DNA of 64,000 nt from Pyrenophora tritici-repentis. Lineage: Eukaryota > Ascomycota > Dothideomycetes > Pleosporales > Pleosporaceae. Made by a program: the position numbers and the translations under genes. The notes below the pieces were generated by a model, which worked only from the letters and a program-made list of their open reading frames with translations, searched no databases and was not told the DNA's origin. The first letter of the stretch is position 1. Every line of letters starts with the position of its first letter. Below, piece by piece: positions 19,932 to 64,000 of the stretch. The DNA is taken from assembly GCF_003171515.1 (NCBI RefSeq), contig NC_089397.1:2294001-2358000 (forward strand), in the 5' to 3' direction.

Positions 19932-20023
19932 TGTTGAACAACATTAGAATCCTCCAAGTCAATCTCAACAAGAGCATTACAGCGACTGAGTCTACACTGC
20001 AACTTGCAGTTGAACTTAAAGCT

Positions 20024-20260
20024 TATTGGAACAAGGTCTCCTCTGGTGGTATGACTACCATAGGGAACCGAGTAGAGGTATGTTAGGTCACCACGTATTG
20101 GATTGAACTACACTAAGAGCTGTTGTTCTGTCTTCTTATTATCATGATGATCTGGGGATTTACATGACAGATCATCATTCCGCGTCGGTCCTTCTGCTCG
20201 GGCTTACTTCCACGAGCCTCATCCCCGCCGACCTGGACTGAACCTTACATCTTCTCAACA
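20024..20260. mobile_element. Solo LTR (237 bp) inside LINE ORF2
   Basis: The insert is bounded by the 5-bp duplication AAGCT (20019-20023 and 20261-20265). It begins TATTGGAACAAGG and ends CTTCTCAACA. The usual TG...CA ends would apply if the second base was G before a G-to-A change. The LINE frame resumes exactly after it. The parent LTR family is not otherwise present in the window. Confidence 0.75.
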
Positions 20261-21638
20261 AAGCTGATATAATTGCAATTCAAGAGCCATGGCTAACCAC
20301 CAACGACAACTACGCAACAGCAAGATCTATAAATCACACTGCGTTTATCCAGATCTTACCAGTAACAAACCTACCCGTCCGCCCTAGGGTTCTATTTTAT
20401 ATATCTAGAACACTGGAAGCAGAGACATTCACCCAACACGACTTCAAAACAGACCCAGACGCAATGGCTATTACAATAAAAGGTTCTAATTTCCAATTTA
20501 ACCTATTTAACGTATACAACCAAACAAACGCCGAAGGGGAAAAAACACTGCCTAGAGCTATACTCAACACCAAGCTTCCGCCAAGTTTTATCTTAGTACT
20601 AGATAGCAACGAGCACCATCCATTGTGGGACCCGCTATGCCCAACGACGAGCCAAGGAGCACAGCCATTTATTGACTGGATTGAAGAACAAGACCTAGAG
20701 CTCCTAAACACACCAGGAGTAGGCACATTCTTCAGACCACACCTATCTAGAGAAACAGTCCTAGACCTCTCACTTGTCACTCCAGACTTGGCTAGCGAAG
20801 CTACGGACTGGCAGACTATACCTGAAACTGGATCAGATCACTACGGCCTCCTATTCTCCATCCAAACAAACGCAGACCTTGTAGAAAACCCGACAAATCA
20901 ACCCAGATTTAATACTGCAAAGGCTGATTGGGACACCTTCAACAAGGAACTAGAAACGGCAATCCAAAACAGTCAGACCTTGCAAGATATGGACCAGATC
21001 AGTGATCCAAGAAAGGCAGACTCAATGGACCTTCTCCTCGGCAACAATACAGAGCTAGAGCAACAGCTAGAAGAGATTGGCAAAGCAATAACTCAAGCAA
21101 TCCAAACTGCAGCAAACAAAGCTATCCCTATCACTAGACTTGGTCCAAAACCAAAAGCTTGGTGGAACAAAGAGCTGACAAAGCTACGACAAGACACTTC
21201 CCACTATAGAAGGATTTTTAAAGAAAAGCTCGAAACTACTGCGATACACGACGCCTACCTAGAGAAAAGAGACTTCCTACGTGCACGAAACACCTACAAC
21301 AAGGCAATCAAAGACGCTAAAAGGAAACACTGGAATGAATTCCTAGAGAAGGAGGACCCGCAGTCAATCTACAAAGCCATGGCATACACAAAGGATAATA
21401 AAGTCAAAATAATTCCACCTATACAAGGAGAAACATCATTCGACAAGAAATGCCAAGCGTTCCGCAACACGCTATTCCCACCACCGCCCACAACCGAAGC
21501 GCCCACATTCACCAACTACCAGGAAAAGAGATGGGATTGGCCAGCACTATCCACGACTGAACTAGAACGAGCATGCTCAAGTCAAGTCAAAAGTAGTACC
21601 CCAGGACCAGATGCAATAACACAAGACATAATCACAGC

Positions 21639-21800
21639 TAGACTCCGCAACAATCAATTCAATCCGGTCACTCTCCTAGACCCACTTACCTATCTAGGTA
21701 GGGCTTAAACTCCTATAGGTAACTACTAGGCTTAAAGCGGTAATCAATCAATCCAATCTGAACCTTCTAGGACCCACTTAATTGATTGTTGCGGACTGTG
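21639..21800. mobile_element. hAT-type MITE family M1, copy 3, in LINE ORF2
   Basis: The perfect 8-bp duplication is ATCACAGC (21631-21638 and 21801-21808). It has the same length and orientation as copy 2. It splits the reverse transcriptase domain. Confidence 0.94.
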
Positions 21801-31191: not shown

Positions 31192-31348
31192 TACTGTGGT
31201 ATCAGGCATAAGTTTTGTACAGTGGGGCAAACAGGGGCTGATTTCAACTAGTACAAGTTGAGATGGTCTATTCAGTATTTGGTATAGCCGCCCTGGGCAG
31301 CCAATACAGCCTCACACCTCTCTCTCATACTATTTACTATTATTATTA

Positions 31349-33174
31349 ACCTGTTTTATCAGTGAGCGCCCCACGAACACCAGCGAGGCGTACGCGCAGC
31401 GACGTAGCTCAGCACCACAACACAAATTTTGTACTCTTGCAACAGTATAGTATTATTCAGAAGCGTCACTATTATTTATATCCTCAATTTCTACCTTGCA
31501 GGTGCGAGAGTTGTGCCCAATCTCACCGCAACGGCCGCAGCGTCGCCCTGCGCGCACCCTCTTCGCCGGCTCCTCACCCTCCTCACGTCTGCCACCCTCC
31601 CTTTCAGCAATTAAGTCTAATACCTCGCCGACTGTTAGTGTCTCCTCTGCCCGTACGTAGCGTCTCTTGCGACTTTTACGCTTTGTTGCTGCTTCAGTAG
31701 CAGTATTAAGGCGCACTATCTCTGCGCGCATCAACACCATCTCATGAGCCATCTGCTGCGCGCCTTTTGTCAGCTGCCGCACCTGCTCATCAAGTGAACT
31801 TGCTGGAGACCCTCGATGGATTTTCACCCTGTTTTGAACCAGCGTTGATTGCGCCTCCATTTCTTTGGCGTTGCGTGGTGTTTTCGCCTCCCAAGCGGCG
31901 TCGACTTGCTGTGGTGGAGTTTGCGTACGCAGCTGCACATCCAGCTTCGATAACACAGCCTGTGGATCATGTGGAGACAATCCAGCGCCTCGAAACCCTG
32001 CGCAAGCATTCTCTCTTGTAAACGCCTTCTCAAAAGCTACTTCAAAGGCTGGTAAGAAGGTCTGTTTGCTGATGTGGTTGATGCGATCGCGTGCCAAGGC
32101 TGAGATCTGATCACCGTACGCGCGCTTCAATGGCGAGAAACAGGCGACGTCAAGCGGCTGCAGGAGGTGCGACGAGTGTGGAGGCATACAGAGGGCAATA
32201 ATCTTCTTCTCCTTGCAGCGATCCTGGAAATCTATCGAGCAATGGCTCTCGTGGCCGTCGATAATCAGCAGCCTATACGCTCCTACAGGCCTCGCATGCG
32301 TATCAAAGTGATCAAGCCAGGCGAGCGCTAGATTGTTGTTCGTCCAGCCTGTTGGGCTTACTTGAATAACCCAGTTGCGTGGGAGGTCCTCAGTAAACCA
32401 GTTAGAGATAAGAACCTTGCCGGCAAAGATGAGGAAGGGTGGGATAACACGCCCTGTTGCGCTGACGCCCTGTATTTACGTAGTCCACTCGCGATCACCA
32501 GGCTGAAGCTTCTTCGCTTTCCCAGGTTTCTCTATGCCTGTCACAACAAGTTGTGAAGATATCTTGCCCATCAGGAAGCCAGACTCGTCAAAGTTGTACA
32601 TGTCGTCGTCCACAATACCGTACTTCGCCTTCATGTTCTGAACCAGCGTGAACCAGGGCTCGATGATCGCTGGGTCTTCACAGAGAGCTCGCTGGTGATC
32701 GTATGGACGAGTCCAGCGCGTGCGCAGCTCAGGTGTACGCTTAATAAACCTGTCAACCCAGCATTTACCAACAGGCTCACCGCCGCGGTCGCGCAGCAGT
32801 CTATCAGCCATATCTTGTACGTGTAGCTTTGAGGGCGGTACTCCACGTAGGTTCTCGTCAAGTATACGCTGCAGAATCACTTCCTCTTCTAGCTTCGTCA
32901 GGCGCTTTGATCTGGGCTCGCAGTCGCGTCTAGAGGGCTTCCCGTCGCGTCGTCGTTGTATCGTCCTACGAGGAACGCTGTAGACTGCCTCAGCACGTCG
33001 CAGGCTCGTAATCTGGTCGCATTTAATGTCAGAGAGGGCAAGCTGCACGCCAGCTTCAGTATAGGGCTTGTGAGGTTGTGGTTGTTGAGACATTACGTGT
33101 TGAGTGTCGCGCATGCGCTTCGCTGGTGTTCGTGGGGCGCTCACTGAGGTGGGGCGCTCACTGATAAAACAGGT
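31349..33174 (-). mobile_element. pogo-E transposon, in the TTA tail of the composite element
   Basis: The inverted ends are ACCTGTTTTATCAGTGAGCG(CCCCA) and reverse. TA lies at 31347-31348 and 33175-33176, both within the (TTA)n repeat that is the tail of the composite retroelement. It is 1826 bp. The right end has an extra partial repeat of the GGGGCGCTCACTGA motif. Confidence 0.9.
31453..33114 (-). pseudogene. pogo-E transposase with one stop and a C-terminal zinc knuckle
   Basis: It starts at the ATG at 33114 (MRDTQHVMSQQ) or 33093. HTH regions are AEAVYSVPRRTIQRRRDG and WVDRFIKRTPELRTRW. DDE_1 motifs are MYNFDESGFLMG, LLIIDGHESH and HSSHLLQPLDVACF. One TAA at 32476-32478 follows GDREWTT where a CAA would fit; frames on both sides are otherwise open (554 codons in total). 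The C-terminus has a coiled coil, a basic region and a CCHC knuckle, CGRCGEIGHNSRTC, absent from the other pogo transposases here. Confidence 0.86.
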
Positions 33175-33645
33175 TATTATTATTATATATCCATTAGAGT
33201 CCTGTATCAGTCGGTGACTATGTAGGACTTTGGCTAAGCCGTTCTATATAAGTTGGTCGATGTGGAGTTTCTTTAGGTTTTGTACAATTTAGGTGACAGT
33301 TTGCGTACTCCAATTTCAGAGCTAGTCTTCTATTGGCGCATGTGCTAAAGAGCAGTGTGATAGAATAGAAAGAGATGTAGCAGCGAGCTCTTTTGTAAGG
33401 AAATAAAGTGTTGAGTGTAGGCGTCTATATATAGGGATCTATTACCACAAAATAATAGATCTATATAGCTAGTGCCTGGTCGGTGTTTTGCTCGTAGAGC
33501 AGTTCGGTATATCGAGTCGGTTTAGGGCGTTCGGTAGGTAGAGTGGTTGTTGTAGTCCTCTATATATAGGGATCTATTACCACAGAATAATAGATCTATA
33601 TAGCTAGTGCCTGGTCGATGTTTTGCTCGTAGAGCGGTTCGGTAT

Positions 33646-33824
33646 TGTGATGGATCAAACCTACGATCCCTCACGCGATCACGTGCCATACAATCACGTG
33701 CCACGCTGGCAGTTGGCCCGTGCGAGGAATAATAAAGTTCCCCTCGTACTTGTATATAGATCTGTACACACAATCTCACTTATTAGAGGCATCCTAACTA
33801 TTGCAGTGTACTAGTGCCTTTACA
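33646..33824 (+). repeat. 5' LTR of the gypsy element
   Basis: It begins TGTGATGG and ends TTTACA. It contains two CACGTG hexamers and a TATATA stretch (about 33753-33759), which are plausible promoter elements. It is identical to 41168-41346 and to the solo LTR at 41824-42002 (inverted). Confidence 0.93.
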
Positions 33825-33826
33825 CT

Positions 33827-33835
33827 ATTGTGTGT
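33827..33835 (+). promoter_or_regulatory. Possible self-primer binding site
   Basis: ATTGTGTGT, 2 nt past the LTR, is complementary to ACACACAAT in the LTR (33766-33774), just downstream of TATATA. Tf1-type chromoviruses prime reverse transcription with their own mRNA 5' end in this way. Nine bases could match by chance. Confidence 0.45.
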
Positions 33836-34350
33836 CAACCCCTACATACCTAGGATACTTCGCATCAGGCTCAGTTATCAGAAACACCGTCCGCGCCGAG
33901 CGCCGCCGCCGATTGAGCAACTGCGACTTGCTACATCGGGCAGAACAAGACGTTCTGCGACGGGTTAGGTCTTGACGACGAGGATCGCAAAGTATTGCGC
34001 TAGAAGCCCACGGGTGGAGACACCAGGCTCAACAAGCAAGTATTGCTCGTGAGGGTTGTCACCAACGCTGGTAGAGGACAGGTCCACCTACATCAACGGA
34101 CAAGTAGGCAGAGGGCAAGGCATCGAGCTTCGAGAAGCGCGACCCTACGGTAAGCCCTGCGCAACACACGAAAAGACCAGAGACACCAGGCTCAACAGGC
34201 AAGTATTGCTCGTGGGGGTTGTCACCAACGCTGGTAAAGGACAGGTCCACCTACATCAACGGACAAGTAGGCAGAAGGCAAGGCATCGAGCTTCGAGAAG
34301 CGCGACCCTACGGTCAGCCCTGCGCAACACACACGAAAAGATCATCGCGA

Positions 34351-36698
34351 TGGCAAACCCGGCCAATACCCAGAATACCCAAGGTACCTCAGCCACCGGT
34401 GCCACCTTCGGGCAAGCTTCCCAGGATCCTACTCAATCACAGATGGGCCCGCCTCTCGTACCAGTACGAGCTTGCCTCTCCAACCGCCGAGAGAGCATGC
34501 TTCTGGCAGCCCATCCGTCATCCCAGCCATCAGTATCAGCTAGCGGCGACCTAGAGCCCATGACTGCTACACGCGAGATTGTCGGCATCGAAATCAACGA
34601 CGTCCTGCTCGAATACCTCAAAGATTCTAACTACGTTTACCTCCGTTATACCGTTGACACCGAGTGGTTCGAATTACAAGAGGATCCCGAACCTGACGAG
34701 CACAGCAATGCCTTTTACTCCCTTAGCACAGGCCGAATCCGCACTGATGGCAACATCACCCACAACATCAACGACTTCACTGTCACTAACTCTAGTAACC
34801 TCCAGAAGAACGTGAAGGATCGTCCCGACTTCTGGTGGCGATTTATTGTCTCTACGCTAGTCTCCCTACGCAACTGCACTGACGCCATCAATAGGCATCT
34901 GCAGACTGTGGACCGCAATGAAGGAGAGACTCAAGCTCTACGAGACCGACTAGCGAATGTTGAAGCAGCCCTTGATGAAACTTCGAACAGTAAACAACTA
35001 CAAGTTGGCATGGTTAGCAGCAACCTGTACAAGGAGAAGCTGACAGAGATCCGACGCCTCACCTCGGACATCGGAAAGCTCAAAGCTGCGTCAGAACAAC
35101 TCCCCAACGTTCGCGATGACCCCGCCTTCAAAGCCCTCGCCGCTGAGCGCGACCTTGCCGCCACCGAACGCAATGAACTCAAGCAGAAGGTTGAGGACCT
35201 ATCCCGCCGAGCCGATGAACCGGAGAGCGGTCCTAACTACGCAGAGTTGGCACAGAAGCTCAAGGAGGAGTCTGACAGCGCCGACTGGTGGGCAGACCAA
35301 GCTAAGGCCAACGCTGAGCTCTGCGACAAGTTCAAAGGACAAGCTGATCGCTATTCTATCGAGCTTAACCAGTATGATGTCAAGTACTCTAACATGGAGG
35401 CGAACAAGAACGAAGCTCTCGCCCTTAAGGATAAGGCTTACGATGAGCTCAACCTCCAGCTCACCGAGGCTAGACGTGAGACAAAAACGGTCACCGACCG
35501 ACTGCTGCAACATGAACCCAACTATCAGCCGTACACCCTCTGGCGGCGCGAGCGATCTTACGACCCAGTACGGCCTGTACAATCAAGCGTTTTGCTACAG
35601 CGACCTGTAGATGGTACCGCTGACCAACTCTCACAAGATCCTCGCCGAGCTGGGTACACCCCATGGGATAACCGTACTCCCGTGCGCGACGCCTCGCTAC
35701 CTCCTCCATCATCGAACCCATACGCCCCCGCTCCTACAGTACCGCGACCGCCGCCCGTCGCGCCCTCTACCGCCGGTGGAGGATTCTCTTACAAACTCCC
35801 AGAACTTGAGACGTTCAAGGGCAAGGTCGACGACGACTACGAGCGGTGGCGCGAGATGGCAGTGGCCAAGTGTCGCACATACCCAGAGGACTGGCAAGCG
35901 GTTGACTACCTCAAGTTCCGCATTCAAGGCGAAGCTTACGAGCACATCCGAGATGTCAAAGCTCGCCATTTCCTAGATTTCCTAGAGACTCTCGACAGCC
36001 AGTATCTCACCTATGATCGGGAAGCTGACGCCGAAACCCTCATCGCCGACGGCTCGCTCCACTACAAGTCTGGACAGAAGTTCATGGAGTGGAAGTCTAA
36101 GTTCACCTCTTGCATGCGAATCCTCAAACACAAGAACGCGACCCAGATCCGATACGCTCGCGAGTTCATGCGACCCGGGTTAGCTATCGCGACCACTGCC
36201 GGATCTCACAAGGATGAGACCATCCAGTCCTTCTTGCTGCGAGCGCAACACATCGACCAGGGACATCAACAGATTGACGCTGGCCGAAAATTAACTCCCG
36301 TTACGAAGACCGCTGGTGCTAGCCGTACCCAAAAGTTGGTCACCTTTCGGACACCCGACACTCCAGGTCACAACAACGCCGCCAGCACGCATACGTACAA
36401 GAAGATGGCCTTCGAGCGGTCAGAGAAAGACAAGAAGCGTCTAGCTGACTTGAAGCTCTGCTTCAAATGTGGCAAGGATGACCATCAGATGAGGCACGAG
36501 ACTGCCCCCTGCCGCGGCAAGCCCTTCACTCCTTCTCACCAAATCCCCGCACTGGCTTCTTTGTACATCAATGCTCTCGACGCTTCCAACGAAGAGGAGC
36601 GAGACGAGGATACTGAGGAGCCGCTGGACGACAACGACTTAGTGGATGACGATGGCTTCTACGTCAACGACGAGGAACTACTTGAGCATTTAAATTAG
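34351..36698 (+). CDS. gag: Gypsy Gag
   Basis: The frame is open from 34056, but the likely start is the ATG at 34351 (MANPANTQNTQGTS); the upstream part reads through a 163-bp tandem duplication in the leader. The protein has a long coiled coil (about residues 190-390), a capsid-like retrotransposon gag region (YKLPELETFKGKVDDDYERW, FMEWKSKFTSCMRILKH) and a zinc knuckle CFKCGKDDHQMRHETAPC. An acidic tail ends at the TAG. It would form the virus-like particle and package RNA. A GC-rich hairpin directly follows the stop. Confidence 0.85.
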
Positions 36699-36731
36699 GG
36701 GCTCCCGCGCAGAGCCGCGTGCGGGAGCTCA
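36699..36731 (+). promoter_or_regulatory. Hairpin directly after the gag stop codon
   Basis: Following TAG GG, GCTCCCGCGC and GCGTGCGGGAGC can pair around a six-base loop. Its place at the gag/pol boundary suggests a recoding or reinitiation signal. This is inferred from position and pairing only. Confidence 0.45.
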
Positions 36732-37552
36732 ATTGGCGTAACGCAAAAAGACACCAGCGCCGTGTTCGAAACCAGCATCGCCGTTTCGAGATCGCTGCAG
36801 CCTTGCTGCTCGCCCCTGACGAAACGCCAACTATGACGGAGGTCCACTTCGTGTCCTCCGCCTCCATCGGAGGCAAGCCTTCTAAAGACTTCAGCCGACA
36901 ACTCGAGTTTCCCGGCTCCGCTCTCACGCGACCTGATTGTTGGCAACCGATTTCTACCCTTATCGACACGGGAGCCAGCGCATGCTTCGTCAATCAGTCA
37001 TGGGTTAACCAACACCGCCTAGATACTATGCCTGTGGCCAAACCCATTCGATTGTCACTAGCCAACGGCGGAGAAGTGGACAAGCTTACCCAGGCCGTTG
37101 ATCTGCCCGTCCGACACGGAAGCCATACGCACAACGTCCTATGCTACGTCACCAATATCGGCAAGTACGACGTTATCCTAGGCATGAATTGGATGGACTA
37201 TCACCAGCCTGCCCTCCACTTTGGCGACCAGCGATCACTCACCTTCGCTAAGGCAGGGTGCAAACTTAACTGCCTCCACGAAGGACTCCCAGAGACGGTT
37301 TACGAAAACGGAGTTTGTCACAGTCACGTACAACTAGTCAAGGGAGACTACCAGACAGGCGACACCACTACTAAGACGAACAAGGATGGTAAGGTGACGA
37401 CTGAGGAGACTATGGCTGATATCTACCTCATCTCCGCTGCCGCTGCAACCGCACTCGCAGCCAAACATCCTGACCAGGTCATATGGTTGGAACCCCGCCA
37501 TTGGGCCAAGCTTGCGAAGCCCCCGATGAAGACCGAGAAGGCATCGGCGTAG
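36722..37552 (+). CDS. pol: Gypsy protease domain frame
   Basis: It is in a different frame from Gag, with no obvious ATG near its start (only GTG at 36719), so expression probably needs recoding. The aspartic protease motif is LIDTGASACFVNQSW, with VILGMNWMDYH completing the retropepsin fold. It overlaps the downstream RT frame by about 70 bp (37483-37552). That implies a second frameshift, or a one-base change in this copy. Confidence 0.72.
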   Translation, partial: RELNWRNAKRHQRRVRNQHRRFEIAAALLLAPDETPTMTEVHFVSSASIGGKPSKDFSRQLEFPGSALTRPDCWQPISTLIDTGASACFVNQSWVNQHRLDTMPVAKPIRLSLANGGEVDKLTQAVDLPVRHGSHTHNVLCYVTNIGKYDVILGMNWMDYHQPALHFGDQRSLTFAKAGCKLNCLHEGLPETVYENGVCHSHVQLVKGDYQTGDTTTKTNKDGKVTTEETMADIYLISAAAATALAAKHPDQVIWLEPRHWAKLAKPPMKTEKASA

Positions 37553-40500
37553 CCGCAGTCTCGCAAACTGACTTTGAGAAGTACATGCACAAGATGGAGC
37601 AACCTTACATGACTAGAGACCAGATTGGCCAGCTGGTACCTGAGTGGGTGTTGGACGAACTACCTGATCTGTTCAACCCTCATCTGGCTCATCAACTCCC
37701 CGAACGAAGACCAGGAGTCGACCACCCCATCGACCTGCTTCCTGACACTACGCCCCCTAAGCCCCATGTCTACGGACTCACTCGTACCGAGACTGAGGCT
37801 GTTAAGAAGTATATCGATGACATGCTGCAAAAGGGCTTAATCAAGGCCAGTAACTCCCCGTTTGCGTCACCTGTCTTGATCGTCAAGAAACCTGGAGGAG
37901 GTCTCCGCATATGTGTCGACTACCGAGCACTCAACAACGTCACTAAGAAGAATCGAAATGCGCCACCAGCCATCAAAGAAACTCTAGCGCGCATGGCCAA
38001 AGTTCAGATTATGTCTCTCGTCGATGTTGTAGCCGCTTTCAACACCGTTCGGATTAAAGAAGGTGACGAAGAGAAAACCGCCTTCCTCACCCGGTACGGA
38101 CTCTATGAGTATATGGTCATGCCCTTTGGACTGTGCAATGCACCAGGGACGTTCCAAAACTTCATCAACGAAACGCTGCGCGAATACTTGGACGTTATAT
38201 GTACCGCCTACCTAGACGACATACTTATATATAGCGACAACGAGAAAGACCACCGTTCGCATGTCCTAAAGGTTCTCCGCAAGATTCAAGGCGCAGGACT
38301 ATCGTTGGATCCCACGAAGTGCAAGTTCGAAACCAAGCGAGTCAAGTACTTAGGCTTGATCCTCACCACCGACGGCATCGAAATGGATCCGGAGAAGGTC
38401 TCCACTGTCCTCGATTGGCAACTGCCGAGATCAGTGAAGGACATGCAGTCTTTCCTCGGCTTCTGCAACTTCTATCGCCGGTTTATTAAAGGGTTCTCAT
38501 ATATCGCTAAGCCACTCACGGAACTCACCAAGGAGGGTAGTCAACGACATTTCCCTCTCCAAGCTAATGGACAAGCTGCGAAAGCCTTTGAACAGCTAAA
38601 GCTTGCGTTTAAAACAGCGGGCGTACTGTCCCACTTTGACCCAGATTTGGAAACGTGGCTCGAGACTGACGCGTCGGACTTCGTTACCGCAGCTATCCTC
38701 TCGCAGATGCACAAAGGTGTTCTACGACCTGTAGCGTTCTTATCACATAAGATGACACCTGCCGAGTGCAACTACGAGATCTATGACAAGGAGCTCCTCG
38801 CGATTGTTCGAGCATTCGAGGAGTGGAGGTTTGAACTGTCAGGTACTGATGATCCCATCTTGGTATTGTCAGACCACCAGGCCCTCCAGACGTTCATGAC
38901 AACCAAACGCCTCAACCGACGGCAAGCTCGATGGGCTGAGTTCCTAGCTGAGTTCAATTTTAGAGTCAAATACCGTCCTGGTAAACAAGGAACTAAGCCC
39001 GACGCACTCACTCGCCGACCGGGCGATCTTCCAGCTAACGCCGAGGATGAGCGACGTCAACACCAGGTACAAGTGATCCTCAAGCCTGACCAGGTGGATC
39101 CTGAGTGTCGAGTTGCCACCTTTAGCTTCCACTTCGACGGTGGCTCCCGACACGCTGTATATCTGGCCAACGCCCTCGGTGACGAGCTCCGGACGTCCCC
39201 AGTCTCCTTGGCCATGATGATGTACCAAGACAGTGAAACGGACGACTTTAGCGACGAATACCTCTTCGCTCTCGGAGACACAGCGGAGGTCGATGACACG
39301 TCCGCTGCACCGCTTACGGAGCCGGACACGTCGCTGGACGAAGCCAATATCCTCCAGACCGTTCGACAAGCTTACCCGGATGACGACATCGTTCAAGTTA
39401 TCCTCAAAGCCAAAGCTGATGGCCAGCGCCGCATCCCGTACCACCTAATTCACGGTCCAAACAGGATACGCTTAGAGCTTGGTGATTGCTCAATACACGA
39501 CGGAGTCTTCTATGTCAAGAAGAAGGTCTACATCCCCGAATCAGGCACCCTGCGCACCCGGATCATCGAACGCGTACACCGATCCTATTGCGGTGGCCAT
39601 AGCGGCAAACACGGTAGCTACGACATGTTAAACCGCTGGTACTACTGGCCGAAGATGATAAATGATGTAGCACAGTACGTCAAGAACTGTTTGGCCTGTC
39701 GGAGATCGAAATCTTACCGCGATGGGAAACACGGGCTCCTACATCCACTCCCGATACCTGAGCGATATTGGAGTAGCATCAGCATGGACTATATCACGCA
39801 CCTGCCTCCTTGCACCGATAACGGCCGCACATATACCAACGTCTTAGTGATTGTTGATCGGCTTAGCAAGAAGAAGAAGTTTATACCTGTGGTGGACCTA
39901 AAGGTTGATACCCTTGTGAAAGCCTTCGTCGAGTACGTGTGGCGTGAGGAGGGATATCCCGACAGCATCGTCAGCGACCGTGGAGCCCAGTTCCTCTCCC
40001 ATTTCTGGACACGTCTTTGTCAACGACTGGGTACCAAGCCAAAGTTGTCAACGGGCTATCACCCAGAAACCGATGGGCAGACGGAGAACGCCAACGCTTG
40101 GCTAAAACAATACCTCCGGTCATATATTAACTACGAGCAAGACAACTGGGCTCTCTTTCTTCCTATGGCAGAGTTCGAAGCTAACAACGCCATCAACGCT
40201 AGTACTGGGACTACCGCTTTCCGCCTCACTAAGGGCTATGACCCGAAGTCTGGTCTTGAACCACCTAAGGTGAACACTGGTCTCACTGCCCCAGCTCGCA
40301 GAGATCAAGACAACGCCAACAAGTTTGCAGAAAAGCTAGACGCGCTACGCAAAGCCCTTCGGCTCGAACTACAATGGTCACAAGCTAAACAGGCGGAATA
40401 CGCAAACGACGCCCGGCTCCCAGCGCCTGAGTTTAAGGTCGGCGATCAAGTTATGTTGGACGCCCGTAACTTCCGTACTACACGTCCTAGTCTATCACTT

Positions 40501-41079
40501 GACTTCAAGAACCGCGGTCCCTTCACTGTCACACGCGTCATTGACAATATGGCTTACGAACTACTCCTGCCTCCAGAGATGGGCAAGCTCCACAACGTCT
40601 TCCACCCGTGGTTACTACACTTACACGAGGAGGCTCCGCTGCCTGGTCAACTGCGCGATTCCGCACCAGCTGAGTTCGCCGATCCCGACGAGGAAGATGG
40701 TACAAGCTATGAAGTGGAAGCCGTCCTAGACTCCCGCGTCAACAAGAGACTTAAAGACCCCTACTCTCGCAGCGGTCTTCTCCAATACTTAGTGCGATGG
40801 ACCAACTACCCCGCCGGCACCGACAACCCATCTTGGGAACCATACATGAACCTGGTGGACTCCGCAGACATTGTCCAACAGTACCATGAGTCCCGCCCTA
40901 AAGCTCCAGGACCACATCGAAAGTTTGCGACGCTCGCAGGCAAACAGGATTTACTTATGATTACAGTGATCGCATCCTCTAACAATCCTAAGCCTCCACC
41001 AGGAGCCCCGACGATACAGCAGACGGAGGAGACTATTGGCCCGCGTAGCTTTCGCAATACCGGCAACATTGCTGTTTAG
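37483..41079 (+). CDS. pol: Gypsy Pol: RT, RNase H, integrase, chromodomain
   Basis: Domains in order: reverse transcriptase (KPGGGLRICVDYRALNN; active site AYLDDILIYS), RNase H (LETDASDFVTAAILSQ), integrase zinc finger (HRSYCGGHSGKHG...CLACRRSK), and integrase core with Asp in ISMDYITHLPP, Asp in IVSDRGAQFLS and Glu in DGQTENANAWL. A C-terminal chromodomain follows (YEVEAVLDSRVNKR, LQYLVRWTNYP, SWEPYMNLVDSADIVQQYH). The chromodomain places it among the chromoviruses, which use it to target chromatin. The frame is intact. Confidence 0.92.
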   Translation: MVGTPPLGQACEAPDEDREGIGVAAVSQTDFEKYMHKMEQPYMTRDQIGQLVPEWVLDELPDLFNPHLAHQLPERRPGVDHPIDLLPDTTPPKPHVYGLTRTETEAVKKYIDDMLQKGLIKASNSPFASPVLIVKKPGGGLRICVDYRALNNVTKKNRNAPPAIKETLARMAKVQIMSLVDVVAAFNTVRIKEGDEEKTAFLTRYGLYEYMVMPFGLCNAPGTFQNFINETLREYLDVICTAYLDDILIYSDNEKDHRSHVLKVLRKIQGAGLSLDPTKCKFETKRVKYLGLILTTDGIEMDPEKVSTVLDWQLPRSVKDMQSFLGFCNFYRRFIKGFSYIAKPLTELTKEGSQRHFPLQANGQAAKAFEQLKLAFKTAGVLSHFDPDLETWLETDASDFVTAAILSQMHKGVLRPVAFLSHKMTPAECNYEIYDKELLAIVRAFEEWRFELSGTDDPILVLSDHQALQTFMTTKRLNRRQARWAEFLAEFNFRVKYRPGKQGTKPDALTRRPGDLPANAEDERRQHQVQVILKPDQVDPECRVATFSFHFDGGSRHAVYLANALGDELRTSPVSLAMMMYQDSETDDFSDEYLFALGDTAEVDDTSAAPLTEPDTSLDEANILQTVRQAYPDDDIVQVILKAKADGQRRIPYHLIHGPNRIRLELGDCSIHDGVFYVKKKVYIPESGTLRTRIIERVHRSYCGGHSGKHGSYDMLNRWYYWPKMINDVAQYVKNCLACRRSKSYRDGKHGLLHPLPIPERYWSSISMDYITHLPPCTDNGRTYTNVLVIVDRLSKKKKFIPVVDLKVDTLVKAFVEYVWREEGYPDSIVSDRGAQFLSHFWTRLCQRLGTKPKLSTGYHPETDGQTENANAWLKQYLRSYINYEQDNWALFLPMAEFEANNAINASTGTTAFRLTKGYDPKSGLEPPKVNTGLTAPARRDQDNANKFAEKLDALRKALRLELQWSQAKQAEYANDARLPAPEFKVGDQVMLDARNFRTTRPSLSLDFKNRGPFTVTRVIDNMAYELLLPPEMGKLHNVFHPWLLHLHEEAPLPGQLRDSAPAEFADPDEEDGTSYEVEAVLDSRVNKRLKDPYSRSGLLQYLVRWTNYPAGTDNPSWEPYMNLVDSADIVQQYHESRPKAPGPHRKFATLAGKQDLLMITVIASSNNPKPPPGAPTIQQTEETIGPRSFRNTGNIAV

Positions 41080-41167
41080 GCTTACAGAAGCTTTTGCAAA
41101 GCAAGCTAGACAACTCTTTTTAATTACTTTAAGCGACGGAACCTGCTTTTTTTTGAAGGGGGGGTAG

Positions 41168-41346
41168 TGTGATGGATCAAACCTACGATCCCTCACGCGA
41201 TCACGTGCCATACAATCACGTGCCACGCTGGCAGTTGGCCCGTGCGAGGAATAATAAAGTTCCCCTCGTACTTGTATATAGATCTGTACACACAATCTCA
41301 CTTATTAGAGGCATCCTAACTATTGCAGTGTACTAGTGCCTTTACA
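41168..41346 (+). repeat. 3' LTR of the gypsy element
   Basis: 179 bp, identical to the 5' LTR. It is preceded by the polypurine tract at 41154-41167. Confidence 0.93.
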
Positions 41347-41704
41347 GGTATAGGGGGTCGGTATATCGGGCTGGTTTAGGGCGTTCGGGTATAGATAGCA
41401 ACTAGATATATAGATCTATTACTTTGCAAGTAATAGATCTATATACCTAAGAAAGAGCCGTTGCTCTGTCGGTTTCGTAGAGGGTGCCTTCAATCGAACA
41501 TCTAAAATCAGTTGGCGCACAGACCACTTGCAGAGATTTCTCTCAACTGAGACCAGATCACAACTCTGTCAAAGTTGCAGTAGCCAGCGCGCCCGCCACA
41601 ACGCCTGCAGGTAGAAACAGGCGTTGGAAACTGATTTTAGGAAGGCATTTCAATAGATTTGAGATGAAAAAAGGATGATATATATACTATTTACTATGGA
41701 AGCA

Positions 41705-42440
41705 AAAATGGCACCTAGGGCAACCACCAGAAATACAGACAGTCACTGTATAACACTATCTTAGAGAGAGCTACTCTATAAAACTAATAAAACTGTATTT
41801 CTTACTATAAGAGCCCGCTGCTATGTAAAGGCACTAGTACACTGCAATAGTTAGGATGCCTCTAATAAGTGAGATTGTGTGTACAGATCTATATACAAGT
41901 ACGAGGGGAACTTTATTATTCCTCGCACGGGCCAACTGCCAGCGTGGCACGTGATTGTATGGCACGTGATCGCGTGAGGGATCGTAGGTTTGATCCATCA
42001 CAGCTACATCTCTTTCTATCTACCACACTGCTCTTTAGCACTAGCGCCTACTCCAGATCTACTCTAGAATAGGAGCACGCAAAACATCCTCCAAACTGTT
42101 GTCAGATATTCACTCTCATCTGGAATACTGATGAAATAGGTAATAATGGTGATGATATTGATTATTGATTGTGTCTTTGTTCTGTCTACGGTTGTGGGCA
42201 CACCTAGGGGGTGCCAAGCCTTCCTGTGATCCGATTGGCTCTCACAGATGCCGGGTCACGCTAGTCTAACCCAGCGTCTGTACGCTCTCATCTTCAACAG
42301 TGCTATTATCTGACAACTGTACTACCCCAAAGAAACTACTCATAGAAACACCTATATAGAACGGCCTAGGCCAAAGTCTTGCATAGTCTCTGACTGAAAA
42401 GGACTCTAAATGGAATAATAATAATAATAATAATAATAAT
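41705..42440 (+). mobile_element. 5'-truncated LINE copy with (TAA)n tail
   Basis: It starts AAAATGGCACCTAGGGCAAC, matching the LINE at about 24165, and runs through the 3' region to CTCTAAATGGAATAATAATAA. Target duplication ACTATGGAAGCA lies at 41693-41704 and 42441-42452. A solo gypsy LTR is inserted inside. The middle (about 42100-42300) has diverged from the 24-kb copy. Confidence 0.85.
41824..42002 (-). mobile_element. Solo LTR of the gypsy family
   Basis: It is the exact inverse of the 179-bp LTRs at 33646 and 41168. It splits GAGCCCGCTGCTACATCTC of the LINE 3' region, giving a 4-bp duplication GCTA. Its identity to the nearby full element shows the family was active recently. Confidence 0.92.
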
Positions 42441-54641: not shown

Positions 54642-55119
54642 ATGAACCCAATAGAGCTTGCAGTTAAAGCGATAGAAGCACAGTCCGCAACAATCAATTA
54701 AGTGGGTCCTAGAAGGTTCAGATTGGATTGATTGATTACCGCTTTAAGCCTAGTAGTTACCTATAGGAGTTTAAGCCCTACCTAGATAGGTAAGTGGGTC
54801 TAGGAGAGTGACCGGATTGAATTGATTGTTGCGGAGTCTAGATAGAAGGGCAGGGTGAAGGAGAACAACTTTCATATACGAAGGTTGCTGAACAGTACAA
54901 CGTGCGCAGACACATACTGGCTAGAAGATGCAAAGGCACCCAAGCCCCCATGCAAGCCAAAGCAATCAACCAGCGCAAACTCAACCCACAACAAGAGGAG
55001 CTCATCAAGCACGTGGACAAACTCAGAGTAAGAGGCCTTTCACCTACAAGAGAGAATCTGAGAAAATTTGCTTCAGGGATAGCTCAAGAGGAGGTGGAAA
55101 AGCAGTGGGTTTGTAACGG
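54642..55119 (+). pseudogene. pogo-D transposase N-terminus, truncated by hAT-3
   Basis: It starts MNPIELAVKAIEA, is interrupted by the M1 MITE (54679-54840) and resumes in frame as EGQGEGEQLSYTKVAEQYNV. It continues through the CENP-B-type region (LNPQQEELIKHVDKL, SPTRENLRKFASGIAQEE) to QWV at 55110. It then meets the hAT-3 terminus. Relatives are pogo-A and pogo-C. No remaining part was found to the right. Confidence 0.82.
54679..54840. mobile_element. hAT-type MITE family M1, copy 4
   Basis: The perfect 8-bp duplication is GATAGAAG (54671-54678 and 54841-54848). It is inserted in the first HTH-coding part of pogo-D. Confidence 0.94.
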
Positions 55120-55300: not shown

Positions 55301-58002
55301 TCAGCTAATATCCCACTTATGTACACCGTATTTCGCGTCCATCTCCTCATCGCTGATAGCCTCCTTTACAGGCACCTCACCACTGCCAAATCCAGCTCTT
55401 ACCCATCGTCGATCGCACTGTATTGCTGCTAGAAGTTGCGGAGAAATGCTGCGCCGACGGGGCTCGAGGAGGTCACCCAGCTCGCTGAATAAGCGCTCAC
55501 ACTCACAGCTTGAGCCTGGGATTGATAGCATGTCGATAGCAAATTTGCTAAGGCTGGGGTAGCGATCGCGGAGTCCTACCCAGTATTTTATAGGGTCGAC
55601 GCCCTCGCTAGCGATCGGTTCGCTGCGTTTCCAAGCCTCATATTCATCCTCCTCGTTCTCCGTAAGCCCTGCAGGCTCAATAAAGCTGTTGATAGCGTCG
55701 TCTATATCATTGTGCCTGACTTTGGGGCGTAAGCGCGGCTTCGGTAAGCTTTTGTACTCCGCCCACAAATGTTGAAACTTGCGGTTGCTGCTCTCTAGCC
55801 AATCAGGCTTATCCGCCCACGCTGCGTCAAGGTAGCTTTTGTAGCGAGGATGAAGGATTGTAGCAGCATAGTAAGCTGGCGAGAGGTCGAGCTTGTTGTA
55901 GTACTCGCGGGCTTTAACTAGGGCAGCGCGGAGGTTGATAGCAAGGTGGTCTTCGGGTGACTCTGTATGCTCATCGTGAATGACGTCTTCATAGCTTTGC
56001 AAGCGGTCCTCATAGACTCCAAGCACAGTCCGCAACAATCAATTAAGTGGGTCCTAGAAGGTTCAGATTGGATTGATTGATTACCGCTTTAAGCCTAGTA
56101 GTTACCTATAGGAGTTTAAGCCCTACCTAGATAGGTAAGTGGGTCTAGGAGAGTGACCGGATTGAATTGATTGTTGCGGAGTCTAACTCCAAGTAAGTAT
56201 TCAAATACTGGAATAACCTCAGCGATTGCTCCAAAAGCACCGCTTTTGCCGCGGCCTTCAAGCCGTTTTGTAGCTTGTTTCAGTGGCCTGAGCACATCAA
56301 TATACTCAGCAATCACCTGCCAGTCATGGGCATTGATCCCATCAGACCTCATCCAATCCGGCGCTGCAGGCAGCTTGTTGTTACGACTTCGGGCGTACGC
56401 GTCTTCAGTTTCAATCTTCTGAATATGGTAGTTGGCGTACCCATTAACCGCTAATTGCAACTCAACAGCGCGCTCAAAACACGAAACGTAAGAGTTCCAG
56501 CGAGTAACAACTGGCTTGACGGGCTCCTTGATTTTGTGCTGTTCTGTTGGCGCGTTGACAGGCTGGTCCCTAATAGCGAGCTTCTGATACTTCTCAAAAA
56601 GAGCGTACTGTTGTGGTGTTTTGATGTAGTTGATAACCGCGAGAAGCACTCCTAATGGTCCATCGCCTCGCCAAGTAGCCATGTTCTCAGCTTCGTTCAC
56701 GCGCTCAGTCTCCTCGTTGTCGTAGGACTCTTTCTCCTCACCCCAGAGTAGCATCTGGCCAATGAGATTAAGCGTATGAGGACCGCAGCGAAGGCGACGC
56801 TCAGTAGTGCTGAAGCCCATCTGCAAGGCGAGAGTGTTGATCGTGGTGTTGTTGTTATGTGCGTTGTCGAGGACGAAGTAACCGAGCTTGCCCACAGTGA
56901 TTTCGAACTGCTTGAATATTGCCATCACGACCTCAGCCATAGCCTCGCCGGTGTGGGCACCTGTCAGTTGTGGGAGCGCAATAGGCAAGTCCCTGAGCTC
57001 GCCAGAGCTATCAACGTAGTGGGCGACGATACCTAAGTAACCGCGCTTGCCACCTTTTGTCGTCCATCCGTCAAAGCTTATATGGACTTTGCTCATTGAT
57101 TCTGAAAGGCTTGCGACAACCTTTAGTAACAGGTAGTTGTACAGGCGTATAACGTATCGTGAGACGCTGTTATAAGATGCCCACAGGGCTCGTTCTGCCT
57201 CTACGCTAGCTAATTGTATCATATTGCGAAAAGACGATGATTCGAATTGTGAGAGTGGGAGGTTGTTTTCGACGAGCCAGGTGACGGCCGCAAGCCTAAA
57301 CTCTTGTATATTGAAGTTGGTAAGCTCGTTGGCAACAGCCTGAGAGCAGCCCTTCTGAAGGGCGCGTTCGAGGAGAGTTTCTTTCCGAGGAGCGACGGTA
57401 GTGCGCTTACTTGGAGGCTTCAAGCCATGACCTTTCTTGTCTTCTCCGAGATGACGTGCTGGCGCTGATGGAGACTGCGAGACGTCATGTATGCCACGGC
57501 CAACAGTAGTGAACTTGTGCTTATAGCAATAGTGGCAGATCCACGTGACTTTTGCGACGTTGCTGCGCAAGGCGATGCGATAGCCATGGCTGTATACCCA
57601 GCTTGCTCGGTTCGAAAGTGATGTGGGCGGCTTGCAGTGCTTTGGGTAGCGACTCCAATTAAAGCCGTCGTATTTGTCCTCTACCCATACGAAACCCTCG
57701 TCGACAGCCTCGCTAGCTGCTCCTGAAGCTGCAACAGTGGCATGCTCGCTGCCCTCAGGTGGTGGGATGATTGTCTCTTCGGCGCGCGACTCTCGGAGGG
57801 TCGCTTCAAAATTTGGTGCTTGTGGCGCGGCGACGAGAGCTTGACGCGGCGACAGCGGTGGAGGAGGTGGAGATGGTGAGAATGGCCGAGTATCGACTAG
57901 CACAGGTTGGCTGGCAGTCCCGCGATGACGCGCTGCGACTCTAGGGCGCTTCGAAGTTGTCGCGATTTCTAGAGCATTAACGCGTGTTCTTTTTGCTGGC
58001 AT
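55301..58002 (-). pseudogene. hAT-3 transposase, split by a MITE
   Basis: It starts at 58002 (MPAKRTRVNALEIATTSKR). A basic/Pro-rich N-terminus is followed by a BED-like finger (WICHYCYKHKFTTVGRG...RHLGEDKKGH), the core (KVHISFDGWTTKGGKRGYLG, GYFVLDNAHNNNTTI) and the hATC domain (SSCECERLFSELGDLLEPRR; ending YGVHKWDIS). The M1 MITE at 56024-56185 interrupts it after PVFEYLLGV. Removing that MITE and one 8-bp duplication leaves 844 codons in frame. It is a relative of the hAT-1 transposase. Confidence 0.88.
56024..56185. mobile_element. hAT-type MITE family M1, copy 5
   Basis: The perfect 8-bp duplication is ACTCCAAG (56016-56023 and 56186-56193). It lies inside the hAT-3 transposase gene and is the only visible lesion there. 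Confidence 0.94.
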
Positions 58003-59485: not shown

Positions 59486-62036
59486 ATAGCGGGATCAGCT
59501 GTGAGAGAAGCGAGGATAGCGAGAGTAGGAAAGCAGGAGCCGCAGGCGCGATAGAAGTAAGAGTAGCAAGAGCAGTAAGAGCAGGATGTGTAGCCGCGAG
59601 GATAGAGGCAATTAAGGTAATTAAGGTGATTGCGATGATTGCGAGGACAGTAAGAGCAACAAGGGCAGCGCAAGAAAGGCGCGAACGGCAAGGGAATTAA
59701 CAATTAAGTTAATTGTAGCGATTGCAAGGACAGCGGGAACAGCGAGGATAGTAAGGGCAGTAAGGGTAGCAAGGACAGCGGAAGCAGCGAGGACAACGAG
59801 GACAGCGAGGATTGTAAGGACAGCGGAAGCAGCGAGGATAACGAGGACAGCGAGGATAGTAAGAACAGCGAGGATAGTAAGGACAGTAAGAGTAGCGAGG
59901 ATAGCGAAAGTAGGAGAGTAGCAGTAGCAATAGCAGTAGCCGGAGGTGTATATAAGCTGTAAGAGGTAAGAGGTAGAAGTAAGGATATTATAAGCAGCAA
60001 GGATAGCAGGGGCAGAAGCAGCAACAGGTGCAGGGGTAGTAGGAGTAGTAATAAGAATATTAAGAGCAGTGCAAGTTATAAGGACAGGGGACAAAGTAAG
60101 GACAGTAGAGATAGTAAGAGTATCAGAAGCAGCGAGAACAGAAGCCGTAGGATTGATAGCGAAGATATTAAGAGCAGCAAGGAAAGCGAAAGCAGCGAGG
60201 GTAGTAAGAGCAGCGACAAGAGGAGCGGTAGCGGCCGCCGAAACCGCATTTACCGCAGGTGGAGGAGGCGTAGGAGGTAAGGGGCAGAAGAGAGCAGTAG
60301 AGACAGCGGGAACAGCGGGGAAAGGGAGAGCAGCAAGAAGGACGGGGATAGTAGAGATAGAGGAAGTGGCGAGAGCAGAAGCAGTAATAGGGAGGATTGC
60401 GGAATGCGGAGGAGTAAGAGCGGTAGGAGTAAGAGTAGCAAGAGCAGGACGTAGAAGTAAGAGGGGTAGGAGCAGGAGCAGTAAGAATAGCAGGAGCAGT
60501 AAGAATAGCAGGAGCAGTAAGAATAGCAGGAGTAGTAAGAATAGTAGGCGTAGCAAGAGTAGGAGCCGCAGTGGCGATAGTGTAGAAGCGGCAGTAAACA
60601 CAGGTGTAGTAGTAGCCGTAGGAATAATAACGAGCATGTTGAGAGCAGTAAGGACGGCAGGAACAGTGGGAGTTGTAATAGTAGAACCCGTAACTGTAAT
60701 TAAATAGATCGTAAGAGTGATAGTCACGATAGAAGGAAAAGTTACAAGAATAGTAGCTGTAGCCGTGGTAGAAGCAAGAGTAATTATAATAGAGGCAAAG
60801 ATAGTAACAGTAGTAAGAGTAATAAGCACAGTAAGGGTATAGTAAGAGCAAAAGTTTAAAGAAGAGTTATTTATGTTAAAAATAAGTATGCAGGTATAAA
60901 GCAAAGAAAAGAAAGATTCGAAAAGAGAAAGTATTAAGTCGGTGAGATTCATAATCGATAGATAAGGTAGGTAAAATAGGTATAGTTTGTAGTATAGATT
61001 AGATAGTGTTTGAGAAAGAAATCAAGCATAGAATCAAGTAGGATTCAAGGATTAGGATTGTAGTAGAAGACAGAGCAAGTTATTAGGAATACATTAATAA
61101 GAAGATAGAAGAAAAGATTAAGTTCATATAAAAGTAGAGTAATAAGAAGAAGATATCAATAAAAAAGATATAAGAGATTATGTTTCAATAATATTAAAAA
61201 GAGATGTTAGAAAAGAAAGAAGAATAAAAGAAACCCGATATAATTAAAGAGGAGTATAGTAGAGGGAATAGAAGATAAGTAGAAGAAGAAAGAGAGAGAA
61301 AGATAAGGAAGTTTATCGAGAAGGAGATAAGAAGCAGTCGATAAAGAGAAAGAAGGAGAAGTAAAGAAAATAGGAGGAGAAGTAAAGAAAATAGAAAGAG
61401 AAGTAAAGAAAATATAGAGTAGGGTAAAGAGAGAGAGTAGCGAGAACAGCAGTAGTAATAAAGATAAGGATAGAGTTAAGGTACAGTACAATAAGGCATA
61501 GTGGGTATTTAAGCAACAGTAGTAAGACGAAGCAGGCCGTGTTAGACGTGCATACAGTAGGTAGAGTTTAAGTTTACCGACGTAGAATAGTGATAGAGGT
61601 ATATAGGGTAGTAGATAATGCGATGTGGTATATAGACGGCGGTAGGCGAAGGACAGAGCCGACACAAGATACAACAGTATTAGAGAACTAAGAGGCAGTA
61701 GGCAAAGGAGATAGTTGAAGAAGTATTTAGGTTGTGTTTAGTATAGCGAGTGGTATAACGTGTGTATACAAGCAATAAGAAGACAATAGATGCGGAGGAG
61801 ATTAGACAGCAGATATAAAAGATTGTTAGTTTCGAGGGTATTTATAGCAAGGTTGTTAGGATTAGTATAGGGAGGCAAGAATAGAGTAGCATAGGGATAG
61901 ATAGGAGGTTAGTAGAACAGAGGATTAAAGTAAATTTAATAGAGGGATTCGTAAGACAGTTTTAGAGCAAGTAGGGGTTAGGGTGCACAGAAACGAATAG
62001 GTTAATAAGAGAGTTGTATTAGAGTCAGCCGTTTAT
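59486..62036. repeat. Purine-rich low-complexity tract, left part
   Basis: The plus strand is dominated by A and G, built from loose 6-, 9- and 18-bp units such as AGCAAGAGCAGTAAGAGC. The clearest array is at 60475-60545, with a GCAGGAGCAGTAAGAATA unit. From about 60850 the tract becomes more A-rich. Long reading frames on the C/T strand (for example 59621-60952) arise because stop codons need purines; I do not treat them as genes. Function unknown; the asymmetry could allow triplex structures. Confidence 0.75.
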
Positions 62037-62049
62037 AATAGAGGAGAAC

Positions 62050-63619
62050 GTCCCCAGCTTGCAGGGGCCTTGAGGAAGGCTGAGCCAGGAAGGCCTGGTG
62101 ACAGCAGGTCCCTCAGCCTGCTCCGCTTGCGCTTCTCTGGTGGAGGCACAGAAGCGGCAGATGACGCTGACGACAAGGAAAACTTTGAGCCCCGGTCACT
62201 ATGAGCCACTCTTTGGCTCGTTGACCCTGTTTCTTGTATATTCGATACAATTGAGTTCATCGAACACCAACTTTTCGAGATGACAAAAAGGTCCTGGATT
62301 ACCCTTTTTTCATCTCAATTCCATTGAAATGCCTTCCTAGAATCAGTTTCCAACGTCTGCTTTTGCGTGCAGGCGTTGTGGCGGGCGCGCTGGCCGCTGC
62401 AACTTTGACAGAGTTGTTACCTGGCCTTAGTTGAGAGAAATCTCTGCAAATGGCCCGTGCGCCAACTGATTTTAGATGTTCGATCGAAGGCACCCTCTAC
62501 GAAACCGACAGAGCAACGGCTCTTCCTTAGGTATATATCTCTATTGCTGCAAAGTAATAGGCCTATATATCTAGATGCTACCTATACCCGAACGCCCTAA
62601 ACCAACTCGATATACCGACCCCATATACCGAACCGCTCCAGCACCTGCTGTCACCAGCACACGCACGAGCAAAACACCGACCAGGCACTAGATGTATAGA
62701 TCTATTATCTCTCTTGTAGATCCCTATATACAGACGCCTACACCAAATACCCTCTCCACCGAACGCCCTAAACCGACTCGATATACCGACCCCATATACC
62801 GAACCGCTCTAGCACCTGCTTTCACTAGCACACGCACGAGCAAAACATCGACCAGGCAATAGCTGTATAGATCTATTCTCTCTCTTGTAGATCCCTATAT
62901 ACAGACGCCTACACCAAAAACGCCCTCTCCACCGAACGCCCTAAACCGACTCGATATACCGACCCCATATACCGAACCGCTCTAGCACCTGCTTTCACTA
63001 GCACACGCACGAGCAAAACATCGACTAGGCAATAGCTGTATAGGTCTATTATTGTTAGGTTATAATAGATCCCTGTATACAGACGCCTACACCAAAACGC
63101 CCAAAAACATCGACTAGGCAATAGCTGTATAGATCTATTCTCTCTCTTGTAGATCCCTATATACAGACGCCTACACCAAATACCCTCTCTACCGAACGCC
63201 CTAAACCGACTCGATATACCGACCCCATATACCGAACCGCTCCAGCACCTGCTTTCACTAGCACACGCACGAGCAAAACATCGACCAGGCACTAGATGTA
63301 TAGATCTATTCTCTCTCTTGTAGATCCCTATATACAGACGCCTACACAAAACAACAGACAGACACTGTATAAAACTACAAACAATATTTCTTTTCGCAAA
63401 GAGCTCGCTGTTACATCTCTTTCTGTTCACCACACTGCTCTTTAGCACCCGCGCCAACGGAAGACTAGCTCGGAAATTGGACTACGCAACTATCCTCCAA
63501 ATTGTACAAGACCTATAGAAACTCCATATTGAACAACATACATAGAACGGCTTAGCCAAAGTCCTACATAGTCACCGACTGATACAGGACTCTAATGGAA
63601 ATATAATAATAATAATAAT
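62050..63619 (+). mobile_element. Composite non-autonomous retroelement CR1, copy X
   Basis: The target duplication AATAGAGGAGAAC lies at 62037-62049 and 63620-63632. From 5' to 3': a unique 5' segment (62050 to about 62530) including a small antisense frame shared with 41484-41678; about 4.5 units of a ~172-bp VNTR (about 62580-63345); about 250 bp nearly identical to the 3' end of the LINE at 24185-24446; and a (TAA)n tail. No protein needed for transposition is encoded. Confidence 0.82.
62580..63345 (+). repeat. VNTR of composite element CR1
   Basis: The ~172-bp unit contains CGAACGCCCTAAACCGACTC, GATATACCGACCCCATATAC, CACACGCACGAGCAAAACAT and GATCCCTATATACAGACGCC. These landmarks recur at about 62716, 62888, 63060 (shorter), 63149 and 63318. 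Copy A has only about two related, shorter units. Confidence 0.85.
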
Positions 63620-63632
63620 AATAGAGGAGAAC

Positions 63633-64000
63633 AATGAACAATAGAGGTTATTGCAGAGAAGGGTATAGGCCGAGGTAAAGGGAAGAAGAAAGAAGATATA
63701 GTGGTAATAGGAAAAGTTTCCGAGTTAGGGTATTTAGTAGATGTTATATAGATTAAGTGATAAAAGGGAGTAAATTAGATTAAAAATAAGGAGAGATAGA
63801 AATAGATGAAGAGGAAAGGAAAGAAGAGAGAGGAACAGAAGAGAGAGAGGGGAAGGATGGATGTGGTGGAGAGGAGAGATGAGGAGGGGCAGGGAGGGTT
63901 GGAGCAGCAGGAGCAGGAGCAGGAGCGACAAGGCGGGTGGCGGAGGTGAATACAGCAGCGGCAACAGGAGTTTAGGGAGGTAGAGTAGTGAGGTAGGGAA
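63633..64000. repeat. Purine-rich low-complexity tract, right part
   Basis: It continues the composition of 59486-62036 after the CR1 insertion, with GGAAAGGAAAGAAGAGAGAG-type sequence. It runs off the window end. No gene is seen. Confidence 0.7.

Follow-up and report, generated by a model that had tools for sequence, protein, structure and literature searches.

A probable LINE-dependent composite retroposon with a variable tandem-repeat core in Pyrenophora tritici-repentis

A 64,000-nt stretch of the Pyrenophora tritici-repentis M4 genome (termed here the window; C8:2294001-2358000 of the 40.9-Mb assembly, which was searched as a whole) contains a copy of a repeated, non-coding composite that is most probably (at a probability of roughly 0.9) a non-autonomous retroposon dependent on a LINE. 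This reading draws on features visible in the genome sequence itself: the element's parts, its copy number, a constant junction, target-site duplications, variation of its VNTR, a parent-offspring pair of copies, and a LINE leader containing neither the head nor the VNTR of the element. From these features a presumed transcription start and a presumed RNA intermediate are derived.

The complete insertion, including a piece of host DNA, occupies 62050-63619 on the plus strand, between two plus-strand copies of the 13-bp target-site duplication AATAGAGGAGAAC (62037-62049 on the 5' side and 63620-63632 on the 3' side). It opens with an apparently 5'-transduced host segment of 208 bp (62050-62257, plus strand), which runs antisense to the final ~69 codons of a host gene and whose last 14 bp are GATACAATTGAGTT. 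The family element proper (62258-63619, plus strand) then consists of a 273-bp non-coding head with a fixed 5' end (termed part B; 62258-62530), a 57-bp linker between head and VNTR (62531-62587), a 765-bp VNTR (62588-63352), a LINE-derived 3' end of ~252 bp that begins ~17 nt upstream of the stop codon of ORF2 (termed part C; 63353-63604), and a (TAA)n tail (63600-63619), all on the plus strand. The VNTR comprises units F, F, G, p and E (~171, 173, 165, 86 and 160 bp); TRF reports a period of 171 at 62588-63102, and more units follow on to 63351. A terminal stem-loop, AGUCCU..AGGACU with an inner hairpin, is predicted at 63560-63591 on the plus strand. A coding element is rejected: the longest stop-to-stop stretch on the plus strand is 64 codons, and a stretch of 190 codons on the minus strand is without assigned function. 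An earlier interpretation made from the letters of the window (termed here the sequence-only reading) had described a VNTR, a LINE-like 3' end, a (TAA)n tail and a 13-bp duplication at this element, all of which are present; it had set the start of the 'unique 5' region' too far upstream, inasmuch as 62050-62257 lies outside the family (a 207-bp query has two genomic places, versus 52 for the head).

The start of the family at ~62258 follows from a similarity search of the genome with 62051-62530, in which the best 40 of 70 candidates were scored: two of these match from base 1 of the query, and the other 38 begin at bases 201-211. Pattern searches across the genome found 52 head 5' ends (46 exact, using the first 26 bases of the head; a reversed-pattern control gave 0), 50 element-type 3' ends (49 exact) and 75 LINE-type 3' ends (70 exact). 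The order of head, 57-bp linker, VNTR, part C and (TAA)n is kept in 42 merged segments, save for lost ends and later insertions, and the junction between VNTR and LINE is the same in 43/43 copies examined (one of 44 part-C rows, which has a different LINE end, was left out of this comparison). Two forms of the linker, one base apart (33 and 6 copies), cover all 39 copies having a whole or partial head. It is the VNTR that varies: it spans 161-1188 bp among 29 full-length copies (which measure 0.7-1.8 kb from the head to the end of part C), and its strings of units are of 11 kinds in 39 copies, with F units and G-p pairs varying in number and with the same E unit terminating the array in 38 of the 39. 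Over head plus part C, by comparison, 30 copies show a median pairwise difference of 0.19%, and 158 of their 435 pairs are identical; such low divergence suggests recent activity. Older heads, at ~83-93%, also occur.

The layout of head, VNTR, LINE 3' end and (TAA)n with target duplications is thus that of a multi-copy, non-coding composite genome-wide, and the search yielded what the sequence-only reading had predicted, namely many copies with variable VNTRs, target duplications and a shared LINE 3' end. The 5' truncation that it had also expected is not typical: for 38 of the 50 element-type 3' ends a head 5' end lies at most 3.5 kb upstream on the same strand. For 16 of the 52 heads, no element-type 3' end lies within 2.3 kb. 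Interruption or breakage is seen in six of them (at C7:1104.9, C4:3102.7, C8:2366.8, C27:17.1, C3:3611.9 and C10:2118.9 kb), one (C2:182716-183706, with its head at C2:183681) has a LINE-type 3' end instead, which suggests either recombination or a second junction, and nine others make up the rest. Heads are frequent near contig ends, 29 of the 52 lying within 200 kb of one versus ~10% expected (nine large contigs); a 27-kb contig carries one of the 29, the contig ends counted here are not proven telomeres, and the far end of C5 is undefined. Certain copies are segmental duplicates of one another (C9:150/195 kb; C10:2136/2164 kb; C22/C36; and, in part, C5:62/C6:55 kb). As a general cause of the copies, however, segmental duplication is rejected, as is an untransposed single locus, on account of the many differing duplications and flanks.

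Target-site duplications were sought in the 44 part-C rows, of which 14 lacking one end were dropped, leaving 30 testable copies. Duplications of 11-16 nt, or in two cases longer ones that run into a LINE tail, flank 23 of the 30; in one further copy (C2:278 kb) the duplication lies 9 nt upstream of the head (i.e., with 9 extra nt at the 5' side), which brings the total to 24/30. Among swapped-end controls, 853/870 are without a duplication, 12 of the other 17 give matches of 7-9 nt, and the remaining five (at least 10 nt, with none under 13 nt) all come from pairs whose flanks are shared by segmental duplication; the duplications at 23 of 30 copies therefore exceed chance. Six of the 30 testable copies have no duplication, one of these being read just 6 nt past part C and one just 68 nt upstream. 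Nineteen of 23 duplications start with TA or AA, as pairing between the target and the (UAA)n tail would predict, and the longest-match search itself leans that way. Segmental duplication accounts for two of the 24 duplicated copies, which leaves ~22 insertions documented as independent.

Comparison of two copies suggests a specific history for the window insertion, namely that 62050-62257 is a 5' transduction of host DNA beside a parent copy at C8:1796.5 kb. The two places that match 62051-62257 are the window and C8:1796555-1796761; there the two copies are contiguous and 100% identical from 62051 through part C, and they have the same 765-bp VNTR array. At the C8:1796-kb copy, GATACAATTGAGTT immediately precedes the head and immediately follows the tail, whereas in the window it stands before the head only and the whole insertion lies between the AATAGAGGAGAAC copies; hence the C8 copy came first and the window copy is its offspring. 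The parent's 5' flank corresponds, in antisense, to the 3' end of a host gene, whose reading frame runs through ...DADARNSIV in the left flank and NSIVSNIQETG... in the right, both reaching the GATACAATTGAGTT duplication. Relatives without the interruption exist, including a 451-aa protein from P. tritici-repentis (P0100), which is 100% identical to the interrupted host protein on its left side and differs from it by one residue on the right; the left part of the host protein has no Pfam match. The parent insertion thus appears to interrupt a gene that is intact in the protein record of another isolate, and so it is probably polymorphic within the species; by the same token, recent changes to genes in this crop pathogen, a disease agent of wheat, are probably due to the family. 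Among seven copies without an adjacent duplication, a search for other transductions found none besides the 9 extra nt at C2:278 kb.

The LINE taken here as the partner of the element is represented in the window by a 5'-truncated copy (19745-24446, plus strand) that begins in ORF1, the end of which, with zinc knuckles, is followed by a broken ORF2. Pfam recognises endonuclease and RNase H domains in this ORF2; the reverse transcriptase domain is known from the precomputed Pfam annotation of homologues alone, and the zinc knuckles of ORF1 were recognised by eye. That a LINE in the window has almost the same 3' end as the element, as had been claimed beforehand, is confirmed by 91-92% identity between 63353-63604 and 24190-24445. 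A full-length-type partner LINE, whose 5' side was read by eye (L094, L093), has its 5' end at C10:4287312 (L094:1483), a leader of ~221 bp with neither head nor VNTR in it, the start of ORF1, zinc knuckles farther along in ORF1, and a length of ~5.8 kb; the same 5' boundary recurs in a second copy (L062). Matches to the leader occur at 37 places, 19 of which pair with a LINE-type 3' end, in 11 cases at a distance of 5.67-5.70 kb. At six places the match is confined to the first ~110-180 nt of the leader, at 85-91% (C2:182457, C8:2207341, C5:3354180, C9:2007909, C2:308276 and C9:212993); these possibly represent a different subfamily of LINEs or a second family of non-autonomous elements.

The resemblance between part C and the LINE is unevenly distributed: 20 mismatches occur over the 252 positions compared and none within the last 68 nt, for which the probability is 0.002 if mismatches are evenly spread. 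The predicted fold of these 68 nt comprises AGUCCU/AGGACU plus the inner hairpin (z of -2.0 and -1.6, a thin support), and its closing A-U pair is C-G in a more distant LINE end (L055), and another (42 kb) has a G-U, as judged by eye from few sequences. The common 3' end, the tail and the duplications together suggest mobilisation in trans by a LINE, in which the stem-loop presumably has a role. The true driver could be another LINE that is closer to the element than the partner LINE, since part C is 8-9% off the LINE 3' end and the searches scored the best 40 candidates.

Other explanations account for parts of these data. Because the 3' part of the element is plainly LINE, the head and VNTR might form the 5' leader of a LINE with coding capacity, of which the copies would be internally deleted versions. 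Some LINEs do have tandem-repeat leaders, such as the monomers of mouse L1. Yet the LINE at 91% has an unrelated leader, and of the 37 matches to that leader none is followed, on its own strand and over the next 8 kb, by a head or an element-type 3' end; for the partner LINE this explanation, which the sequence-only reading had itself named as one way its proposal might fall, is largely refuted, and it is on the whole very improbable. Much the same low standing is given to the idea that every copy forms anew when reverse transcriptase leaves LINE RNA and jumps onto a plentiful non-coding RNA consisting of head and VNTR, which is the origin given for the WEIRD-MGL chimeras of another fungus in the sections consulted of their description, and which the head at C2:183681, followed by a LINE-type 3' end, would fit. 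The one junction in 43/43 copies stands against it, as compared with 28 different sites in 33 of those chimeras, and so does the fact that the best 40 matches to part C are 99-100% identical to the window copy, the LINE being at only ~91%; a template jump of this kind is likely to be right for the founding event only. Least probable, by a little, is a SINE-type element in which a Pol III head (tRNA, 5S or 7SL) is joined to a LINE tail: Mg-SINE, a SINE from a fungus whose 3' end is LINE-like, is described in the same literature sections, but an Rfam search of the head gives no match up to E = 1, a tRNA search of it finds none, and the distance from head to end of part C in the 29 full-length copies, with a VNTR inside, tells against it. 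The head furthermore contains a run of six T, and such a run usually stops Pol III.

For the window copy in particular, an alternative to transduction is a jump by reverse transcriptase onto a separate antisense RNA of the host. The 5' end of the host piece, in antisense, is 20 nt short of where the stop codon of the host gene ends, a position that would suit such an RNA; however, the parent's own duplication forms the exact join between host piece and head, and one transcript of the parent locus is enough, given that identity with that locus continues unbroken from 62051 through part C. A separate RNA is accordingly regarded as a slight prospect.

Under the preferred reading, that of a LINE-dependent retroposon, a founding fusion would have attached a non-coding head with tandem repeats to a LINE transcript that had been cut immediately upstream of the stop codon of ORF2, and the composite would have been copied as one unit ever since. 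Its transcript would begin with the first base of the head or close to it; the endonuclease and reverse transcriptase of the LINE would recognise the common 3' stem-loop and (UAA)n tail; and target-primed reverse transcription would insert the RNA copy at new sites, giving rise to duplications of 11-16 bp, while the VNTR would expand and contract from copy to copy. In the case of the window copy, the transcript of the parent would have started ~208 bp upstream, within host DNA, as is indicated by the host segment that the offspring carries in front. A broader proposal, held with moderate confidence, is that fungi independently evolved a still-active VNTR-composite retroposon paralleling primate SVA: one that was built once and then amplified, that has a fast-changing repeat core, and that spreads fragments of host genes by 5' transduction, but that, unlike SVA, captured the LINE machinery via a 3' stem-loop that it copied, and not via an A-tail.

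The likeness to SVA, first drawn in the sequence-only reading, is apt for the VNTR and for 5' transduction; it is inapt for the 3' end, because SVA, as the cited sections of its description have it, ends in SINE-R (from HERV-K10) plus an A-tail and has no LINE 3' end (PMC12593883). In the parts of the primate literature drawn upon here (PMC4432496, PMC12593883), SVA, LAVA, PVA and FVA are, like the fungal element, non-coding, LINE-dependent composites with a central VNTR, conserved end units and variable inner units, polymorphic insertions and 5' transductions. They differ, according to the same sections, in having a 5' CT-hexamer/Alu-like part, GC-rich VNTR units of ~30-50 bp, a 3' part that is SINE-R in SVA and other parts in LAVA, PVA and FVA, and an A-tail (PMC4432496, PMC12593883); the fungal element has an unrelated head, 171-bp units, a LINE 3' end and (TAA)n. 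A CT-hexamer or Alu-like region is absent from its head, both by inspection of the sequence and by the lack of an Rfam match, and the parts compared give no sign of an origin shared with the hominoid VNTR composites. Such composites are stated, in the section of PMC4432496 cited, to be specific to hominoid primates; an unrelated fungal VNTR composite would show that the layout arises repeatedly, and would provide a small-genome system in which to study VNTR function. 

Within fungi, related composites have been described. MINE of Magnaporthe, which consists of WEIRD plus a 5'-truncated MGL LINE, similarly has a non-coding head on a LINE 3' part, tens of copies and duplications (of 10-20 bp); it differs in its 28 junctions in 33 elements, formed via recurrent template jumps, and the sections available make no mention of a VNTR (PMC2104539). 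Compared by description, the P. tritici-repentis element has one junction in all copies examined and multiplies as a unit. Mg-SINE, as portrayed in those sections, is likewise non-autonomous, with a 3' end resembling that of a resident LINE (MGL) (PMC2104539), and the AfuSINEs have tRNA- or 5S-related heads in the part of PMC5063351 cited, whereas the P. tritici-repentis element has no such head and does have a VNTR. The partner LINE (called Tad1 in the sequence-only reading) shares the last ~252 bp and differs in its ORFs, its length, its unrelated leader and its want of a VNTR. The earlier statement that no fungal equivalent was known consequently needs qualifying: MINE and Mg-SINE are related cases, and in the open-access literature, as far as its accessible sections extend, neither a fungal VNTR composite nor a fungal LINE transduction was found. 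For P. tritici-repentis itself, Tad1 is mentioned in the consulted portion of the genome paper (PMC3538342), and neither 'SINE' nor an element of this kind appears in the portions consulted of the genome literature (PMC3538342, PMC9594970, PMC5913888). As the same portions report 540 de novo repeat families for M4, a repeat library may already contain the sequence without a name. Strains might be told apart by the element's VNTR lengths and insertion sites, and in the case described here both parent and offspring can be named, with the same VNTR array in each.

The window also holds an older copy of the family (31329-41697, minus strand), which is 5'-truncated inside the head and is bounded by the duplication ACTATTTACTAT at 31329-31340 and 41686-41697. 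Its parts are recognisable at ~33184-33405 (part C), 33415-33645 (VNTR) and 41352-41685 (VNTR start and head), all on the minus strand. The second copy of the sequence-only reading, on the minus strand and with its 12-bp duplication and 5' truncation, is therefore real, and two insertions that came later divide it: a Gypsy-type LTR element inserted in the VNTR (33646-41346; duplication GGTAT, LTRs of ~180 bp, a chromodomain) and, in the (TAA)n tail, a TIR element (~31349-33174) with ends ACCTGTTTTATCAGTGAGCGCCCC, which is probably flanked by a TA duplication. Of the sites that differ, the LINE part of this copy has the LINE's base at 13 and the young element's at 7, as would fit a composite already in existence at a time when its 3' end was nearer to that of the LINE. 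A further copy of the Gypsy-type LTR sequence is found at 41824-42007.

Several other features of the surroundings may be recorded. The young insertion is flanked by strongly purine-rich, cytosine-poor DNA (59700-62037 and 63634-64000), a composition seen also at L094:736-1481 (C 6-9%, A+G 72-78%), and one stretch of this flank (61088-61856) recurs on contig C10 at 93%. A near-identical repeat of ~162 bp, a MITE-like size, occurs at at least five places in the window (409-570, 19528-19689, 21638-21800, 54679-54840 and 56024-56185), one copy being within the LINE ORF2. Just downstream of the LINE lies an ORF for a DDE_1 transposase (24653-26458; 601 aa) with a Tc5-type DNA-binding domain. Amid the transposons are ORFs for a beta-lactamase-family hydrolase (3267-4067), a methyltransferase (11245-12267) and a class IV aminotransferase (13666-14655), which are possibly the remains of a metabolic gene cluster.
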